A DNA stretch of 38,885 bases from a virus, in IMG/VR virus record IMGVR_UViG_3300042691_026659, positions 1 through 38,885 of that record. One strand, given 5' to 3'. The notes beneath the pieces were generated by a model that saw nothing but the letters and a program-made list of their open reading frames with translations, did not search any database and was not told the DNA's origin. The first letter of the stretch is position 1. The number at the start of each line of letters is the position of its first letter. Of the stretch, positions 15,168 through 25,669 are shown piece after piece. The position numbers were made by a program, and so were the translations under genes.

Positions 15168-15376
15168 GAGCGGGCTTCCTTCTTGGCTTTGTGCTTCGGC
15201 TTGTCGTTCTCTGCGATGGTTTCCGCATCGAACTGGTCACGCAAAAGCTGCCCGATCTCGATCGTCAGCGTTTTGACAAGGATGCGATCAGGACGCCCGT
15301 CCAGCACACGGGTGCGGATGTGGCGCTCGACGAAATCGGACACGAAAGCGTCGGCTATGGCGTTATAGTCTTTCAT
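15164..15376 (-). CDS. Small helical protein upstream of the portal gene
   Basis: The product has 70 aa, probably all helix (YNAIADAFVSDFVERHIRTR, EIGQLLRDQF), with a basic C-terminal tail (KPKHKAKKEARS). It overlaps both the ADP-ribosyltransferase-like gene and the portal gene by ATGA. No family recognised. An assembly or DNA-contact role is only a guess from the charge pattern. Confidence 0.55.
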   Translation of the reverse strand: MKDYNAIADAFVSDFVERHIRTRVLDGRPDRILVKTLTIEIGQLLRDQFDAETIAENDKPKHKAKKEARS

Positions 15377-16380
15377 TTGCCCCCCATGAGCAGGCGAAGG
15401 ATGTTGGCTGTGGTCATTGTCTGCGGGTCTTGTTCGCCTTGTGCGGCTTCCATCCCTGCGGGAATGGCTGCACCAGTCGGGGCATTCGCCGCTAACAGGT
15501 TCGCACTATCCGATTTAGAAGGATCAAAGGCGGCGTTGACAGAGCGGATGTTGCGGGGGTCGAATAGCATCACGCTATTTTGCGGACTCCCGTCTCTTGT
15601 TCCCTCGAATTCGTTTAGGTATTTGATGCCATCATAACCGGCATCTTGCAGCGACTTGCGAACGTCCGCCAAGGTTGGATTGAAGTCGTCACCCTTAAAC
15701 GGGATGCCGCGCGTTGCCATCTCATAGCGAAGCGCTCCAACATCCCAAGAATTGCCTTGGCCTAGGTCGGGCAATTCCAGCATGTTGCCTTGCTTGGCGT
15801 AAACAGGCAGAATGCGGCTTTCCGGCCAATAGTCCCCGACATTGCGCTTGTAATATCCAGACGACTTAACAATGTCGTCGGCCTGCTCTTTTGTCCCCAA
15901 GTGAACGCCGAAGATGTCCCTACCCGGCTCAGGCTCAATAGAGAAGGCATCGAAATCATTCCGCGTTCCATGATAGAGCGGCGTATCCGTATCAAACCCC
16001 ATTTCCTTAGCCCTAGCCATTCGGCTTGCAAGGTCCATCGGGAGGTCTGGGGTTGCGCCTTTCATCAGGTTGCCGCCAGCGCTTCCAAGGGCGTTGTCCA
16101 GCGCTCCGGTCATTGCCACGCCAGCGCCTGCCATCGGGGCTAGGCTGGTCATGTCAAACATGGCCGCCGACTTATCCGCCCATGCTTGATCATCATTGAT
16201 TGCGGGAATGGGCGTATCTGCTGCGGCCATGCCTTTCGAGAACGTATCGGCAAGCATCCCCGGCCATGCCAGGCGCACCGACCCGTCTTCGTATTGGCCG
16301 AGCGGCAACATTCCCAACCGTTCCTTTAACGGCTGCAAATACGGCTCCAGCATTCCGCCCCAGTTGATCGGTTTTACCAT
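15373..16380 (-). CDS. Putative ADP-ribosyltransferase-like protein
   Basis: The product has 335 aa. Residues about 118-285 show the pattern of phage polyvalent-type ADP-ribosyltransferases: SRMARAKEMGFDTDTPLYHG (120-138) with the LYHGT core, GVHLGTKEQADDI at 158-170, VYAKQGNMLELPDLG near 193, AGYDGIKYLNEFEG at 247-260 and NSVMLFDPRNIRS at 268-280. The family transfers ADP-ribose from NAD to target proteins or uses related chemistry. The N-terminal 110 residues lack recognised domains. It lies between terminase and portal, so it may be virion-packaged and delivered on infection. Start ATG 16380. Confidence 0.62.
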   Translation of the reverse strand: MVKPINWGGMLEPYLQPLKERLGMLPLGQYEDGSVRLAWPGMLADTFSKGMAAADTPIPAINDDQAWADKSAAMFDMTSLAPMAGAGVAMTGALDNALGSAGGNLMKGATPDLPMDLASRMARAKEMGFDTDTPLYHGTRNDFDAFSIEPEPGRDIFGVHLGTKEQADDIVKSSGYYKRNVGDYWPESRILPVYAKQGNMLELPDLGQGNSWDVGALRYEMATRGIPFKGDDFNPTLADVRKSLQDAGYDGIKYLNEFEGTRDGSPQNSVMLFDPRNIRSVNAAFDPSKSDSANLLAANAPTGAAIPAGMEAAQGEQDPQTMTTANILRLLMGGK

Positions 16381-16384
16381 TGTC

Positions 16385-16489
16385 TCAGTCCCACCGGCTT
16401 GACCAAAGAACGCCCAACACAAAACCTAAAACGATAATTACGCCACCCACGACAGTCCCCATCATCAGGTCAGCAATCATCTGTTCCAT
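16385..16489 (-). CDS. 34-residue membrane peptide
   Basis: A 34-aa product with a short helical start (MEQMIADLMM), one hydrophobic span (GTVVGGVIIVLGFVLGVLW) and a basic end (SSRWD). Its ATG overlaps the stop of the upstream 45-aa gene (TAATG). It looks like one of several single-span micro-proteins in this operon. Function unknown. Confidence 0.5.
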   Translation of the reverse strand: MEQMIADLMMGTVVGGVIIVLGFVLGVLWSSRWD

Positions 16490-16626
16490 TAGACAACCCG
16501 CCTTTGTGGCCGTTGCTTCTTTGATTTCTTGGCACGGATGGCATGGCTCGCATCCCTGTAGGTGCCGACCTTCACGAGCTTGCCGTCTTTCAGTCGATAG
16601 CCCTTGGGAAGCGCAATCTTTCTCAT
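16489..16626 (-). CDS. 45-residue basic protein after the terminase gene
   Basis: A 45-aa, strongly basic product (RKIALPKGYRLKDGKLVKVG, C-terminal RAKKSKKQRPQRRVV). ATG 16626 overlaps the terminase large subunit stop as ATGA and its stop overlaps the next start. The charge suggests nucleic-acid contact. The function is unknown. Confidence 0.5.
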   Translation of the reverse strand: MRKIALPKGYRLKDGKLVKVGTYRDASHAIRAKKSKKQRPQRRVV

Positions 16627-18062
16627 GCGGCCCACCCTGAATGGCTACGTGTTTGCGAGGCCCGGTGCCGATCGCGATCCGCAAGGAACCGCTGCCTGTC
16701 GTCTGCTGCAAAGGTGAGCATCAAAGCATCGGCAAGGTCGGGGCTCTTTCCCGCCAGCCGCTTTTTCATGTCGTCTTTGCTTTCGACCTGGACGCGGCCA
16801 GATGAGAGAACGCGGTATTTCGTGACCGTGAGTTCCGAGATCAGCGCGCGGTCGTTGGGTATCTTGCAGTTGCGGGCTTCGAACCACTCGCGCAGCTTCC
16901 AGTGGAGCTGATCGCGCAGGCGCATGAAAGTATCGTCAACGGACGCGCTCTCGCCCACATTGACGCCGCGCACGGGAAGGCCAAGCTCCGACAACCGATC
17001 CACGACGCCGGCACCGATGCCAATCACATCGACACAGATTTCATGCGGGCGGTCATCTATTTCGGTGGCATCCCATTCGCGCAGGATCAGACCGCACAGG
17101 GTCATGGTGTCTTTCTGGTTAAAGACCTTAATCGGCTCCATCACCGTGTTGCCCTTGCGCTTGCAAAGGGTGGAGCGGTCGCCGCCGCGTGCCGGGTCAA
17201 TACCCCACACCGGCAAGACGTTCATGGGTGCCACGTCACGAGTGATCGCGGCCTCAACCCATTCCATCGGGATGAGGCTGTCGGGTCCGGCCTTGGGGAA
17301 CTCGCCGAGAACGCGGACGCGGTATTCATTGCTGTCGGCCCCGAACCGCTGGATCACGTCCTCGATATGACCACGAGCGCGGGGCACGTCCTCAGACGAG
17401 ACGCGCAGGGTCCAGAACCGATCGGCTAGGAGCGTGTGGCTGTCGTAGAAGTAGCCCGAGCTTTCGGTCGGGTTGCCGGTCATCACGAGGATAGCGCCTT
17501 CGGTGCTCAAAGCGCCCATTGCGACTTCGTACGCTTTTTCATGCACGCCGCTGGCCTCATCGACCAAGAATTGCAGAAACCCGGCGTGAAAACCCTGCAT
17601 CGCGTCGGGGTTGTCTTTGCTGGCAGTACGGCAAACCGCAAAAGCCTCGTCCGGCCGCGCCCTTACCACGATGCGCTCGGCTTGTACCTCAAGTTGGTTC
17701 CGCAGAGGTTCCGGTAATGTCTTGTGCCACTTGGCAATTTCAGGCATCAGCGTATCGCGGAGCTGATCTTGTGAACCGGCGACGAGCGGCACTTTGCAAT
17801 CGACATGAGTCGAGAGCGCCCAGAGGCAGAGGATCGACTGAAAGCACGACTTGCCGACGCCGTGACCGGAGCGGATCGAAATGCGCTTGTGCCCGTCCCG
17901 AATGGCCGACAGAGCCAACACCTGCCACGGCTCAAGCTGCGGCTTGCCCTCGGGGTTGGGTTCCCCCGGCATCAGAAACCCCATGACCCCGCACGCAAAC
18001 AGGAGCGGGTCGTTTGTCGACCGCGCCCATGCTTTCATCCAGGGTTCGAGGGGAAGGGTCAC
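16623..18062 (-). CDS. terL: Terminase large subunit
   Basis: The product has 479 aa. The ATPase has a Walker A motif SGHGVGKS at 65-72 and a Walker B motif FLVDEA at 165-170 (catalytic Glu169), followed by MTGNP near 194-198 as coupling motif. The nuclease domain has GIDPARGGD with Asp289, then CVDVIGIGAGVVDRL near 345, and a C-terminal KSPDLADALMLTFA helix carrying the last acidic residues. This is the packaging motor and nuclease acting at the portal. It overlaps the methyltransferase gene by ATGA. Confidence 0.93.
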   Translation of the reverse strand: MTLPLEPWMKAWARSTNDPLLFACGVMGFLMPGEPNPEGKPQLEPWQVLALSAIRDGHKRISIRSGHGVGKSCFQSILCLWALSTHVDCKVPLVAGSQDQLRDTLMPEIAKWHKTLPEPLRNQLEVQAERIVVRARPDEAFAVCRTASKDNPDAMQGFHAGFLQFLVDEASGVHEKAYEVAMGALSTEGAILVMTGNPTESSGYFYDSHTLLADRFWTLRVSSEDVPRARGHIEDVIQRFGADSNEYRVRVLGEFPKAGPDSLIPMEWVEAAITRDVAPMNVLPVWGIDPARGGDRSTLCKRKGNTVMEPIKVFNQKDTMTLCGLILREWDATEIDDRPHEICVDVIGIGAGVVDRLSELGLPVRGVNVGESASVDDTFMRLRDQLHWKLREWFEARNCKIPNDRALISELTVTKYRVLSSGRVQVESKDDMKKRLAGKSPDLADALMLTFAADDRQRFLADRDRHRASQTRSHSGWAA

Positions 18063-18835
18063 TCTGCGGCCCCCAGCATGTCGAGTTGTTCCGGTTGGGG
18101 AGCCTTCGCAGCCTCTACAAACATATCGGGCTGAGCGTAGGCGTCGCGGATGCGCTTGCAGGCAATGTCAAAATACTTCGGTTCGCACTCGATCCCGATG
18201 AACCGCCGACCAAGTTTGACCGCAGCCACGCCCGTTGTGCCGCTACCCATGAACGGGTCAAGGATGGTGCGGGCGTCTGGAAACTGTTGGACGCACCACC
18301 GCATAACTTCGATTGGCTTCTGCGTCGGGTGTTGGCGCTCTTGGCCTACTTCGCTGTCGCGCTGAACGCCCATCCACATATGGCGCTTAATGCGATCTGC
18401 TCCAGTCTTTGAGCACCACGCCACCTCAAACTCGGAAAAGTCGCCGCTGCCAGCCCCTAGTGTCTTGTCCCAAATCAGCCACCGACCACGGGGCAGTTCA
18501 TAGGCGAAATGATTAGCGCCCCACAAAATGCACGGCCAGCGCAACAGCGCCGAAGGATCAAACGGAATATCGTCGTTTATAATGCCCGTCGCGCCAAGGG
18601 TCACGCCTTTGCCCCGATCCCCTGCAGACCCGCGCCTGTGACCAATCCCATACGGCGGATCAGTCACCACTGCGTCCACCCTTGGGAGAAGCGGGAGAAG
18701 TTCCCGGCAATCTCCAAGGTAAAGTTCGCAGTCGCCAATCGTTTCCTTTCGGAACGACTGGAGCCGCTCGCGCATGTTGGAAATGGCGAGGTCGTAGCAC
18801 TTGCGGGAATTGTCGGCGGGGTCATAATCATCCAT
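18059..18835 (-). CDS. DNA methyltransferase (beta-class N6-adenine or N4-cytosine type)
   Basis: The product has 258 aa. The catalytic motif IV DPPY is at 59-62, a HPTQKP motif at 169-174, and the SAM-binding motif I region DPFMGSGTT at 193-201. DPPY before FxGxG is the beta-class order shared with CcrM and HinfI. It lacks the C-terminal extension of CcrM (about 100 residues longer), so its target need not be GANTC. No restriction partner is next to it. It lies between the terminase genes, so it acts late. It probably protects packaged DNA or alters gene control. Confidence 0.85.
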   Translation of the reverse strand: MDDYDPADNSRKCYDLAISNMRERLQSFRKETIGDCELYLGDCRELLPLLPRVDAVVTDPPYGIGHRRGSAGDRGKGVTLGATGIINDDIPFDPSALLRWPCILWGANHFAYELPRGRWLIWDKTLGAGSGDFSEFEVAWCSKTGADRIKRHMWMGVQRDSEVGQERQHPTQKPIEVMRWCVQQFPDARTILDPFMGSGTTGVAAVKLGRRFIGIECEPKYFDIACKRIRDAYAQPDMFVEAAKAPQPEQLDMLGAAE

Positions 18836-19200
18836 CAGTGCCGCGCCTCCACGTCCTGCTCAAGCTTGTCGATCAGTTCGGCCAAGGCCCCCGATGAAAC
18901 CTTCTGCCAAAGGGCAACGAAGGCGTCGTCTCCCTTGACCGTGAGGTCCGTTTCCTTCGGGATGATCTGAGCCACGACACGGAGGTAGGTCGCCGGGTCC
19001 TCTTCCCGAACCTTGGACAGAACCGCCTTGCCGTGCTTTTCGAAATCCTCAGCCACGGCCGACAGGAAATCTTCGGTGATCTTGTGCCGCGATCCTTTCG
19101 GGCGGCCGGCAGCGTTACCAGTCCATTCTTGACCGGCCTTAAACGGCTTCAAATTGCTCAGTTTCTTCTCAGTTGTATCTGAGACCGGCTTTTTGCTCAT
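18835..19200 (-). CDS. Putative terminase small subunit (DUF5681-like)
   Basis: The product has 121 aa. The N-terminal part carries the FKAGQEWTGNAAGRPKGSR pattern (positions about 19-37), typical of the DUF5681 group commonly encoded just before phage terminases. The rest is helical (FLSAVAEDFEKHGKAVL, FVALWQKVSSGALAELIDKL). It would recognise the packaging site and recruit TerL. Start ATG 19200 overlaps the upstream stop by ATGA. The assignment depends on motif plus position. Confidence 0.62.
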   Translation of the reverse strand: MSKKPVSDTTEKKLSNLKPFKAGQEWTGNAAGRPKGSRHKITEDFLSAVAEDFEKHGKAVLSKVREEDPATYLRVVAQIIPKETDLTVKGDDAFVALWQKVSSGALAELIDKLEQDVEARH

Positions 19201-19709
19201 TGTGCCCCCGCTGTGAACGGAGGGCGGCAGGGGGCGGCGTCGACTTCGCAGCGGATTAAGGTCTGCCCAACCACCTCGCCAACCGATGATCGTGAACACC
19301 GTTTCTGATACCCGACCGCTTGGTCGAGTTGCATAAACGCCTCGCCGTGATTAAAGCGGACGGTTTCAGCCCATGCCTTCTGTGCGCTTTCTTCGGCCCC
19401 GTCTGCGGTTGCCCATTGGCTTCCAACCACACGAACAGGTGAGAGGCAGGATTGCTTTGTTTCCCGCTGTTCGATCGCCTTGACGCGAGTTCCTGTGTGT
19501 TTCTTGGCGGCTCCTGAGGCTCCGGCCGGGATGCTGACCAACAGCATGAATATCAAGCCCCAGACGATAGCGGCGAAGGCGTAGCGGCCTGAGGTCCAGT
19601 TGTTCTGTTCTGTCGGCCAATCAAGCGGCAGAAGCGGCTGCACCGGGCGGCTGTAGGTTGCCCAGTATTCCTCTAAGGGATCGCGTTCTGGCGTGGTGTC
19701 TTGAGCCAT
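19197..19709 (-). CDS. Single-span membrane protein, function unknown
   Basis: The product has 170 aa. It has an acidic, aromatic N-terminal cytoplasmic part, one membrane span at about 45-63 (FAAIVWGLIFMLLVSIPAG) and a larger exported part with four cysteines that could form disulphides. Start ATG 19709 was chosen over upstream options because it follows the 26-aa gene by 2 bases. No family recognised. A superinfection-exclusion or envelope role is possible but unproven. Confidence 0.5.
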   Translation of the reverse strand: MAQDTTPERDPLEEYWATYSRPVQPLLPLDWPTEQNNWTSGRYAFAAIVWGLIFMLLVSIPAGASGAAKKHTGTRVKAIEQRETKQSCLSPVRVVGSQWATADGAEESAQKAWAETVRFNHGEAFMQLDQAVGYQKRCSRSSVGEVVGQTLIRCEVDAAPCRPPFTAGAQ

Positions 19710-19792: not shown

Positions 19793-20130
19793 TGCGCTGC
19801 CTCCGGTAGGTCGAACGGAATGTCTGCAACGGCCCCGACTTCGAGGACGCTCACGGTCCAGTCAGCTCCGATGATGAACTGCATGTCGCCTTCGATCATG
19901 GGCGAGTAAATATCGGCTGGGCGCTGATCCTGAAGCGGCCTGATCTCGATATGGACGAGGCCGTCAGCTTGGACGAGGGCGACTGTCGTTCCTTTTGGCG
20001 CGGGGGTAGATGTTTTAGCTTCGAACCCTACGTCCATAATGCAGCGATCAAGATAGGGCTGACGTGGTGCGCCCGGCTTTGCAGGCGGCGGTTCAAACCC
20101 TGAATGAAAGTAGATGCGCACTCTCGTCAT
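19789..20130 (-). CDS. Hypothetical protein of the late operon head
   Basis: The product has 113 aa, probably beta-rich (VRIYFHSGFEPP, GLVHIEIRPL, DMQFIIGADWTVSVLEVG). No recognised domain. It overlaps the preceding gene by ATGA and the following micro-gene by ATGA. As one of the first products from the 20403-20432 promoter it may be regulatory or a host-interaction protein. Confidence 0.5.
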   Translation of the reverse strand: MTRVRIYFHSGFEPPPAKPGAPRQPYLDRCIMDVGFEAKTSTPAPKGTTVALVQADGLVHIEIRPLQDQRPADIYSPMIEGDMQFIIGADWTVSVLEVGAVADIPFDLPEAAQ

Positions 20131-20396
20131 TGCTGGTTTCCCTCCAGTTGAACGGAAAACGGCCGCACCCTTCCCGATGCGGCCGTTAATGCGGTTGCCC
20201 GCCCCCGAAATTGTCCAAACCTAAAAGCGATGCACCCAAGGTCAGAGCGCATGGCCTTGACGGCTTGCTGATTCAAGAATAACGTCGGCGGCTGGATGTC
20301 CTGGTCAGGGGCACCGCTGACGTTAACCGAACCGATTGAGACAATGCCCGATTTTGGGCGTAGTTTCAAGCGGCTAATGGTGTTTTGTGTTGACAT
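20127..20396 (-). CDS. First gene of the late leftward operon, unknown function
   Basis: The product has 89 aa, beginning STQNTISRLKLRPKSG. No domain was recognised. Start ATG 20396 lies 7 bases downstream of the promoter -10 box, so the transcript would have little or no leader. An in-frame upstream start at 20438 would precede the promoter and is less likely. It overlaps the next gene by ATGA. Confidence 0.55.
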   Translation of the reverse strand: MSTQNTISRLKLRPKSGIVSIGSVNVSGAPDQDIQPPTLFLNQQAVKAMRSDLGCIAFRFGQFRGRATALTAASGRVRPFSVQLEGNQQ

Positions 20397-20402
20397 GACC
20401 TG

Positions 20403-20432
20403 CTTATACGTGTATGTTGATCGGTTTGTCAA
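20403..20432 (-). promoter_or_regulatory. Strong sigma70-type promoter of the late leftward operon
   Basis: On the leftward strand TTGACA (20432-20427) and TATAAG (20408-20403) are separated by 18 bases, close to consensus. The expected start of transcription is at about 20396, the first base of the downstream ATG, which implies a leaderless mRNA. A second TTGACA (20462-20457) lies upstream, in a partly similar context (GTTGAT next to TGTCAA). Confidence 0.68.
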
Positions 20433-20487
20433 TTCCAAAAAGTTAACAAAATCAACGTGTCAAGAGCCAAAAAGGGCCTTGACTGCG

Positions 20488-20793
20488 CTATTTCGCCACA
20501 CCCCCATCTAGAGCCTTCTGATTGGCCTTATCCGCCTCCGCCATCATGGGGAGCATCGGCTCTGACGGCCGCGCCGCTCTCGCCTTGGCTTTCCGATCCA
20601 GTCGCGCCCGCGTTGCCGGCATGGCCAAGTTTAAAAACGATTGAACATCATATCTGAAGCGCCCTCCAGGCGTCTGGAACGCTTTAATCTTGCCTTCCTC
20701 TGCCCATTGGCGTAGAACAGGTAAAGAAATTGACAGAATACGCGCTGCCTCTTGTGCCCTATAGAATTTCTGTTTTTCCTCGTCTTGTTTCAT
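20488..20793 (-). CDS. Excisionase-like MerR-type winged-helix DNA-binding protein
   Basis: The product has 101 aa. Residues 10-54 form the HTH_17/excisionase-type winged helix: FYRAQEAARILSISLPVLRQ then WAEEGKIKAF and TPGGRFRYDVQSFL. The C-terminal part is basic then Met/Ala-rich. Such proteins act as recombination directionality factors with tyrosine integrases or as small regulators. It ends the replication operon just before the late promoter, so a regulator of that promoter is the alternative. RBS AAGGAAGG precedes the ATG. Confidence 0.7.
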   Translation of the reverse strand: MKQDEEKQKFYRAQEAARILSISLPVLRQWAEEGKIKAFQTPGGRFRYDVQSFLNLAMPATRARLDRKAKARAARPSEPMLPMMAEADKANQKALDGGVAK

Positions 20794-20811: not shown

Positions 20812-21540
20812 CTAACCGTTTATTAATTCTTGAAGCATCTTGATCTTTTGCTTCGTTTCATCATCCCAATCTGCTTTACGCCTTCTCACGTCGAGTTGGA
20901 TATACGCTCGCTGAAAGTGCCCTAAACAGAAGGATTTCCCCGGAACCGTCTCACAGCCGCAGTAACCGTGGTCATTGAGCGGATCGCCGTATATCCATTT
21001 ACAACCCCTTCCCACGGCCTCTAGCGTGACCCAGGACGCCCTATCTGGTTCTGGGGTAGGCGCAGGTAGCGGAGACGCGACAATCGCCGCCAGTGGCGCT
21101 GTACGTGGCTTTAAAGCGGCCCTGCGAAGCTGAGCGTTGATCTTGCGATTGGCGTGGCCTGCGCCCTGCTTGCAGATGTTCCCGAGCTTGTGGGCCGGCA
21201 GCCGCAAACGATGCGCTTTTCCAATTATGCTCGATCGGGTAAAATCAACCTCGTAAACGGTCTTGATCTCGATTGCGATCCGAGCGGCGGAGATGCCGGC
21301 CTTCCAGCGGTCGGTTAGCAAAGCCTCAAGCTGCGGCGTCCAACGGGATTGCACGTCGCATTCTCTAGGTTGTAGACACAGGTGATAGGCTTTGTGTTTA
21401 ACGGAGCCGGGAGTGCAACCGGGAAACAGGCGGTCGGCGATGGCCTCGATCGTGTAGCCCAGTTTCCAAAGCCGTTGCAGGGTGCGGACGTGGGCCGGGG
21501 TCCAGTGGCGGTTTTTGTAGGTGTATTTGATCTCTGTCAT
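20812..21540 (-). CDS. GcrA-family cell-cycle regulator with two HTH domains
   Basis: The product has 242 aa. Two successive GcrA/SANT-like helix-turn-helix units are visible: 12-55 (HWTPAHVRTLQRLWKLGYT, then GCTPGSVKHKAYHL) and 67-113 (RWTPQLEALLTDRWKAGIS, then SSIIGKAHRLRL). A Pro/Ala linker (about 145-166) leads to the GcrA C-terminal signature GCKWIYGDP (179-187) and a Cys/His cluster (C180, C194, C196, C205, H208). Host GcrA has a single HTH, binds sigma70-RNA polymerase and responds to methylated GANTC promoters. The ATG overlaps the upstream 49-aa gene. It probably redirects host or phage transcription before the late operon. Confidence 0.8.
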   Translation of the reverse strand: MTEIKYTYKNRHWTPAHVRTLQRLWKLGYTIEAIADRLFPGCTPGSVKHKAYHLCLQPRECDVQSRWTPQLEALLTDRWKAGISAARIAIEIKTVYEVDFTRSSIIGKAHRLRLPAHKLGNICKQGAGHANRKINAQLRRAALKPRTAPLAAIVASPLPAPTPEPDRASWVTLEAVGRGCKWIYGDPLNDHGYCGCETVPGKSFCLGHFQRAYIQLDVRRRKADWDDETKQKIKMLQELING

Positions 21541-21686
21541 TCGATCACCCATAGGCAGGCGTGCGGCCCGTGGACCTTGAAATGATAGCGCCAATAAAGG
21601 CGGGCTAATCGGTTGAACTTCTGCGGGTCGCGTGCCTTGCGCTTTTTGCGCTCGTATTTGCGGAGGCGGTGACAGTTGCTGCTCAT
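21537..21686 (-). CDS. 49-residue basic protein coupled to the GcrA-like gene
   Basis: A 49-aa product, very basic and aromatic (SSNCHRLRKYERKKRKARDP, then LARLYWRYHFKVHG). It overlaps both neighbours by ATGA (start at 21686 with the upstream stop, end at 21537 with the GcrA-like start). Charge suggests nucleic-acid or ribosome contact. Function unknown. Confidence 0.55.
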   Translation of the reverse strand: MSSNCHRLRKYERKKRKARDPQKFNRLARLYWRYHFKVHGPHACLWVIE

Positions 21687-25130: not shown

Positions 25131-25158
25131 AAGCCCCAGGTGTCTAGACCTGGGGCTT
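25131..25158 (-). terminator. Perfect 11-bp hairpin after the winged-helix-like gene
   Basis: AAGCCCCAGGT/ACCTGGGGCTT (25131-25141 with 25148-25158), loop 6 bases, starts just downstream of the leftward gene stop and is followed by ATTCATTCATC on that strand. On the other strand CATTTATTTTGG follows. It probably ends the regulator-side transcript and separates it from the replication operon. Confidence 0.65.
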
Positions 25159-25161
25159 CAT

Positions 25162-25569
25162 TTATTTTGGCTGTGTCTCCTTGGCTAACGGGAAGGCCAG
25201 AACCGTTTTCTTGTCTGCCCCGATCCGTTTGCGCTTACAACCAAACGCCACAAGATGCATTGACAACGCCTTCATTGAAACGGGCGTCCATCGTTTTTCT
25301 ATGGCAAGTTGCTTATACGAGTGTTCGATGTGATCCATGCGAATGTCATTGCCGGCGGCGTATTCCATCATCTCATCAAAAAACGCTTTGACGCTCTGCG
25401 GACCGTTCAACAACGGCGTCTGAAATCGCGCCGGACGCGATGTTACAACCGCGTCCTCAATCGCGTCCGCCTCAATAAGTGGCCCCTGCAAGCCTACGTC
25501 CTCATTCGCTACCGCTGGACGCGGTAGGCGATAGACGTTGGACGCGATCTTCCTGATGTTTTTCAGCAT
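25162..25569 (-). CDS. Winged-helix-like protein, possible repeat-binding replication factor
   Basis: The product has 135 aa. Residues about 58-125 (VKAFFDEMMEYAAGNDIRMD, then YKQLAIEKRWTPVSMKALSM, then FGCKRKRIG) resemble the C-terminal winged-helix domain of phage/plasmid D5-type primases: helix, Y-x2-W-like turn, recognition-type helix and basic wing. It lacks any primase or helicase core. Its first 60 codons overlap part of a GGACGCGAT repeat cluster that continues upstream. A DNA-binding protein that recognises those repeats is a reasonable hypothesis. RBS AGGAG precedes the ATG. Confidence 0.52.
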   Translation of the reverse strand: MLKNIRKIASNVYRLPRPAVANEDVGLQGPLIEADAIEDAVVTSRPARFQTPLLNGPQSVKAFFDEMMEYAAGNDIRMDHIEHSYKQLAIEKRWTPVSMKALSMHLVAFGCKRKRIGADKKTVLAFPLAKETQPK

Positions 25570-25669
25570 TTTAGCTCCTTTGACCGGCGCGATTCGGACG
25601 CGATGTAAATCGCGCCGGACGCGATAGCAGAACGCGTTCCTGAAATCACGTCATCGCGCCGGACGCGAT
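25425..25669. repeat. Cluster of 17-bp palindromic repeats and half-sites
   Basis: Three identical copies of ATCGCGCCGGACGCGAT lie at 25425-25441, 25609-25625 and 25653-25669, with 6-bp inverted arms ATCGCG/CGCGAT. Further GGACGCGAT or GGACGCGGT half-sites lie at 25448-25456 (-), 25460-25468 (-), 25517-25525 (+), 25540-25548 (+) and 25596-25604 (+). The cluster spans the start of the winged-helix-like gene and its upstream region, as expected for operators or a protein-loading site. Confidence 0.72.

Follow-up and report, generated by a model that had tools for sequence, protein, structure and literature searches.

The 38,885-nt stretch of viral DNA analysed here (IMG/VR record IMGVR_UViG_3300042691_026659, hereafter the window) encodes a GcrA homologue in which an additional helix-turn-helix (HTH) domain precedes the canonical DNA-binding domain. 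The gene, gcrA2, lies on the minus strand at 20812..21540, and its 242-aa product was assigned by profile, structure match and model. This tandem, asymmetric DNA-binding half is a new form within GcrA. Our best explanation of its function, which we offer tentatively, is that the product may serve sigma70 as a cofactor when the phage transcribes its own late genes; it is the position of the gene just ahead of a strong structural-gene promoter that suggests a late-gene switch.

A preliminary description, made from the sequence alone, had given the coordinates of the open reading frame exactly but had missed its strand; the plus strand of the same interval reads through stops. Neither the recurrence of the tandem form in other phages nor the scarcity of CcrM sites in the window figured in that description. 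The start of gcrA2 is supported both by an ATGA overlap with a highly basic 49-aa open reading frame (21537..21686, minus strand), to which it is likely translationally coupled, and by L014, a syntenic relative of 16.6 kb. Membership of the product in the GcrA family, as the same description had proposed, is well supported. Pfam GcrA (PF07750) matches residues 66-221 with an E-value of 3.9e-22 and 79.7 bits, above the curated cut-off of 26.9 bits; a GcrA chain (7ye1_G) matches in sequence over the same residues (E 5.5e-10), and the fold matches presented below agree. Residues 66-221 comprise the second HTH (HTH2), the linker and the C-terminal domain and constitute the GcrA part, with residues 1-60 as an addition. 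The host of the virus is probably an alphaproteobacterium.

An AlphaFold2 model of the product was built from 50 phage sequences. Mean pLDDT was 82, with both HTHs and the sigma-interacting domain (SID) mostly above 90 and the linker at 50-70, and the pTM of 0.43 is as expected for domains strung on a flexible linker. The model runs from a three-helix HTH1 (helices 15-26, 31-38 and 44-53) through a three-helix HTH2 (69-80, 85-96 and 102-111) and a long low-confidence linker to the SID and a C-terminal helix at 227-241. Both of the tandem HTHs previously described at residues 12-55 and 67-113 were recovered by structure prediction, at about 10-57 and 66-114. HTH2 (TRSSIIGKAHRL; aa 66-115; 21196..21345, minus strand) is the canonical GcrA DNA-binding domain, and its residues 65-114 match the DNA-binding domain of GcrA on methylated DNA (5yiv) with Z 8.0 and 1.1 A over 45 residues at 40% identity. 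HTH1 (TPGSVKHKAYHL; aa 9-57; 21370..21516, minus strand) is basic and Myb/SANT-like; its residues 10-57 match c-Myb R1 (1guu) with Z 6.2 and 1.9 A, and Myb repeats overall at 1.5-1.9 A, although Z values of this size are modest for small domains and the Myb match of HTH1 indicates fold only. Eukaryotic R2R3 Myb repeats likewise consist of two tandem three-helix domains, a resemblance of fold without family membership.

Within the GcrA recognition helix (TRNAVIGKxHRL), R102, G107 and R111 in gcrA2 numbering are nearly invariant in the phage alignment. HTH2 carries all three of these signature residues and HTH1 none, having P/H/H in their place. The two HTHs first described are thus not equivalent, and with P/H/H at the signature positions of HTH1 the protein would not most naturally be expected to bind pairs of GcrA sites. 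One HTH with the signature and one without it point instead to a canonical reader accompanied by a divergent basic HTH. HTH1 is strongly basic in both the window phage and L014, as counted from the sequences, which fits nucleic-acid binding. A match over the tandem HTHs to a T5 D5-like regulator (phrog_323, E 1.4e-8) was set aside as not specific: 32 of the 50 phage GcrAs, nearly all of them single-HTH, match the same family, as would a hit generic to GcrA HTHs.

The SID (aa 164-216; 20893..21051, minus strand) has the pattern CxW(IY)GDP...C...CxxH. Residues 168-214 match the SID of GcrA in complex with domain 2 of sigma70 (5yix) with Z 6.2 and 1.6 A, and C180, C194, C205 and H208 are invariant across the 50 phage homologues, in agreement with the GcrA C-terminal GCKWIYGDP and Cys/His cluster reported earlier. 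GcrA binds sigma70 domain 2 and stimulates open complexes (PMC7403470). The WPIGDP of the SID motif reads WIYGDP in the window and WVWGDP in L014, at positions where P and I are at least 90% conserved in the phage alignment, and this replacement could weaken sigma binding. The gcrA2 product thus shares with Caulobacter GcrA (PF07750; 5yiv, 5yix, 7ye1) the canonical DNA-binding domain, here HTH2, the long unstructured linker and the CxW..GDP..C..CxxH sigma-interacting domain. It differs in its extra N-terminal HTH of 50-60 aa, its C-terminal helix and WIYGDP for WPIGDP, and in being phage-encoded before late genes in a genome nearly without CcrM sites.

Tandem GcrAs are rare but recurrent. L014 encodes the same tandem protein at 44% identity, the terminase large subunit (TerL) of the two being 92% identical. 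By part, identity is 51% for HTH1, 44% for HTH2 and 27% for the linker; because an independent contig retains both HTHs, and at higher identity than the linker, the tandem arrangement is not due to chance. Divergence between the window and L014 is mosaic, with TerL at 92%, major capsid at 88%, portal at 78%, replisome organizer at 28% and gcrA at 44%. A motif scan of IMG/VR with CxWPIGDP returned 97 stretches with 96 GcrA proteins (88 clusters at 80% identity). Two of the 96, L189 and L241, are tandem, L189 being confirmed by a model in which both HTHs are mostly above pLDDT 90, and no second HTH was detected in the remaining GcrA proteins of that scan. Scans with the gcrA2 protein itself or with the pair alignment gave no tandem relative besides L014. 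Bajun, an unrelated phage of Brevundimonas (207 kb), carries another tandem GcrA, BAJUN_00520, which is annotated "cell cycle regulator". In the literature consulted, phage GcrAs are noted as homologues (PMC3556154), and neither a tandem form nor an experimental test of them was found.

Among alphaproteobacterial genomes, 242 of 385 matched a tandem-profile search. No tandem GcrA was present among the listed matches, in which a full tandem protein is expected to score highest, and nearly all of them begin at the HTH2 part or later. Three full-length-looking chromosomal candidates (G265, G264 and G343) were rejected as single HTHs with long linkers, and the matches in G264 and G343 also run through a stop. 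An open frame of 140 aa (L272) that matches GcrA-type HTHs twice and no SID was observed at 213934-214269 of G397, a 279-kb viral record with a full GcrA elsewhere. An unannotated GcrA gene was also seen in a public phage record (MW202785; L003, 7550-8095), where a replisome organizer call that seems to extend too far and a hypothetical gene in antisense cover part of it.

Each of the five tandem proteins has two or three of the R/G/R residues in one HTH and none in the other, a zero score found in no single-HTH GcrA. BAJUN_00520 shares with the gcrA2 product a tandem HTH and a SID; its HTHs, however, stem from a recent duplication within the protein (26/46 identical), and there HTH1 rather than HTH2 is canonical. 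In the window, HTH1 is closer to Caulobacter GcrA than to its own HTH2. The tandem architecture thus probably arose more than once, with one domain re-specified each time.

The window phage has a temperate, lambda-like plan, with integrase and ERF on the plus strand, a small repressor-like gene and operator-like repeats. The repeats (ATCGCGCCGGACGCGAT; 25425-25441, 25588-25604, 25609-25625 and 25653-25669, three exact and one degenerate) lie both within the first early gene of the minus strand and ahead of it and are likely repressor operators, and directly 3' of that gene is a terminator-like (tR1-like) perfect 11-bp palindromic hairpin at 25131-25158. The minus strand carries, in order, replication genes, the 49-aa basic frame, gcrA2, an HTH_17 gene, and packaging and structural genes. 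As had been noted, gcrA2 stands just before the late operon, the TerS position following at about 1.6 kb and TerL at 2.8 kb on the same strand. The next gene after gcrA2 (20488..20793, minus strand; HTH_17 E 1.2e-8) encodes an HTH_17/excisionase-like small DNA-binding protein conserved in L014 (54% over 61 aa). The first conserved packaging gene is a small DUF5681-like gene in the TerS position (18835..19299), followed by a beta-class N6/N4 DNA methyltransferase (18059..18835; Pfam E 1.2e-21) and TerL (16623..18062; phrog_2 E 4.7e-45), all on the minus strand. The methyltransferase is absent from L014, where its two neighbours abut. The protein of 15373-16422 gave a weak match, below the curated cut-off, to ART-PolyVal (ADP-ribosyltransferase in polyvalent proteins; E 7e-5). 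In 20 of the 24 IMG/VR records carrying both genes, gcrA is on the TerL strand, and in 18 of the 24 TerL lies no more than 16 kb downstream on a circular reading (13 if linear); none of 20,000 random placements equalled this arrangement, although the 24 records are not fully independent.

The best sigma70-type match in the whole window, the candidate late promoter TTGACA-N18-TATAAG (11/12; 20403..20432, minus strand; 0.025 expected per strand), lies directly downstream of gcrA2 and the HTH_17 gene. Its counterpart in L014, TTGACA-17-TAAAAG (record L271 at 3797), is the top match of that contig and occupies the same place. Preceding the promoter is a dyad, GTCAAG-N13-CTTGAC (20459..20483), a candidate activator site centred about -73 from the predicted start. 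It occurs only once in the window (0.04 expected), has a counterpart at the corresponding position in L014, and may also fold into an RNA hairpin. Among other GcrA phages the dyad was found only in L243, which by estimate is what chance alone would give over the sequence searched. A small open reading frame directly 3' of the promoter (20127..20396, minus strand) overlaps the next gene by ATGA. About 210-240 nt after the promoter stands a terminator-like hairpin with a 12-bp stem and U-tract (20158..20187, minus strand), one of three this strong on the strand (fold z -3.96) and kept in L014 with a 13-14-bp stem. The best conserved DNA upstream of the TerS-position gene is a 154-bp block of 76% nucleotide identity with L014, which runs from the GANTC at 20274-20270 to the start codon that follows. 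The conservation of promoter, dyad and hairpin is that seen between two genomes, the window and L014.

Anatomy and conserved promoter DNA together suggest how the gcrA2 product might act on late genes. Like that of Caulobacter GcrA, the SID would hold domain 2 of sigma70 within the host holoenzyme, and HTH2 and HTH1 would jointly give the complex a new DNA address, at the dyad and/or at sites close to the promoter, with less reliance on methylated GANTC. Open complex formation at 20432-20403 would then start transcription of the packaging and structural operon. The place would be that of lambda Q and the mechanism that of GcrA: lambda Q/pR'/tR' has the same order of regulator gene, late promoter, terminator and late genes, but Q is of another protein class and GcrA acts at initiation. 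In favour of such a role are the identity of the GcrA domain and fold, the retention of both HTHs where the early region of L014 has otherwise strongly diverged, the conservation of the window's best promoter right behind the gcrA2/HTH_17 pair, the unique and conserved dyad, the bias in gcrA-TerL strand and spacing across IMG/VR, and the distribution of GANTC described below. Against it, a promoter so near consensus could work without an activator, and the dyad may be the target of the HTH_17 protein or act as an RNA hairpin. Any gene lying ahead of the late operon is, besides, just a member of the early one, so that its position does not prove its target.

GANTC occurs 17 times in the window against 126 expected (O/E 0.135, about 7-fold depleted), the lowest of the 256 XYNZW gapped pentamers, with the next lowest word at 0.59. 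It is absent from the candidate late promoter. The site at 20270..20274 (GAATC here, GACTC in L014) is the only GANTC shared in alignable DNA, and its conservation near the late promoter makes a methylation input possible in the window phage. GANTC is missing from the entire 41-kb record of a relative with a single-HTH GcrA (G443; loci L262-L264), where 114 are expected, so that methylated sites of this kind in the phage's own DNA are not a general requirement of phage GcrAs. Depletion of the word thus argues against simple methyl-GANTC control on phage DNA. Host-type chromosomes around gcrA are themselves depleted (mean O/E 0.49), as is known for CcrM-host chromosomes (PMC3973325), and the host of the window phage therefore likely has CcrM. 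The closest genome-borne relative found, a Hyphomicrobiaceae prophage (TerL 52%), lacks GANTC throughout 21 kb. Most GcrA phages are GANTC-depleted, unlike the Caulobacter phage CcrColossus, which lacks GcrA and is barely depleted (L273, 1-50000; O/E 0.85, one sample). A GcrA-specific depletion (GcrA loci 0.365 vs TerL relatives 0.80) was rejected as confounded by host class; a clustering of residual sites at the immunity region (3/17 in 0.5 kb) was estimated not significant, and upstream of phage gcrA genes there was no enrichment (1.35 vs 1.34 per kb).

The same scarcity of GANTC bears on the main rival, in which the protein is a host-directed cell-cycle regulator that acts at host methylated-GANTC promoters to give a replication-competent host. 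In its favour, the canonical reader persists in HTH2, GANTC is scarce in the phage's own DNA and absent from some GcrA phages, and host cell-cycle action was proposed for phiCbK gp222 in 2012 (PMC3556154). The phiCbK-like GcrAs are also phage-borne family members, but with a single HTH and from 200-kb phages. Host-directed action accounts neither for the added HTH nor for the position of the gene next to a conserved promoter of the phage, and the depletion it draws upon also mirrors host class, so we regard it as possible but doubtful.

The dyad and the hairpin could also serve another factor, the late switch being the HTH_17 protein on the dyad and/or a Q-like antiterminator at 20187-20158, with GcrA2 only boosting or modulating sigma70 use. 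The HTH_17 gene adjoins gcrA2, is conserved and encodes a candidate dyad binder, and the order of conserved promoter and terminator-like hairpin is that of lambda pR'-tR'. However, no antiterminator homologue was recognised in this interval, and HTH_17 proteins of such size are usually excisionases; we consider this explanation unlikely.

The altered SID motif (WIYGDP/WVWGDP), with the SID fold kept and one HTH diverged, would also suit a protein that interferes with host GcrA by competing for sigma70 and methylated sites and so shuts off host GcrA promoters. Since both HTHs are conserved and basic, unlike those of a pure decoy, we judge interference very improbable. That the methyltransferase at 18059-18835 marks sites for GcrA2 to read, as a private epigenetic pair, is the least credible explanation of all: the two genes share an operon and methyltransferase homologues lie near 12/96 GcrA against 2/80 TerL loci (only suggestive, as the windows differ), but most GcrA loci have no methyltransferase and L014 keeps its tandem gcrA without one, so that the methyltransferase was rejected as an obligate partner of gcrA2.

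The tandem form, the late promoter and the near-loss of CcrM sites make GcrA as a phage late activator a concrete alternative, which would show a route for giving a sigma70 cofactor a new DNA address and predicts a promoter sequence. A broader possibility, which we hold with considerable doubt, is that phages have repeatedly turned GcrA, an epigenetic sigma70 cofactor of alphaproteobacteria, into dedicated switches for their late genes, gaining a further HTH of altered specificity and purging their own CcrM sites. If true, a methylation-reading cell-cycle factor would have become a methylation-independent viral transcription factor.
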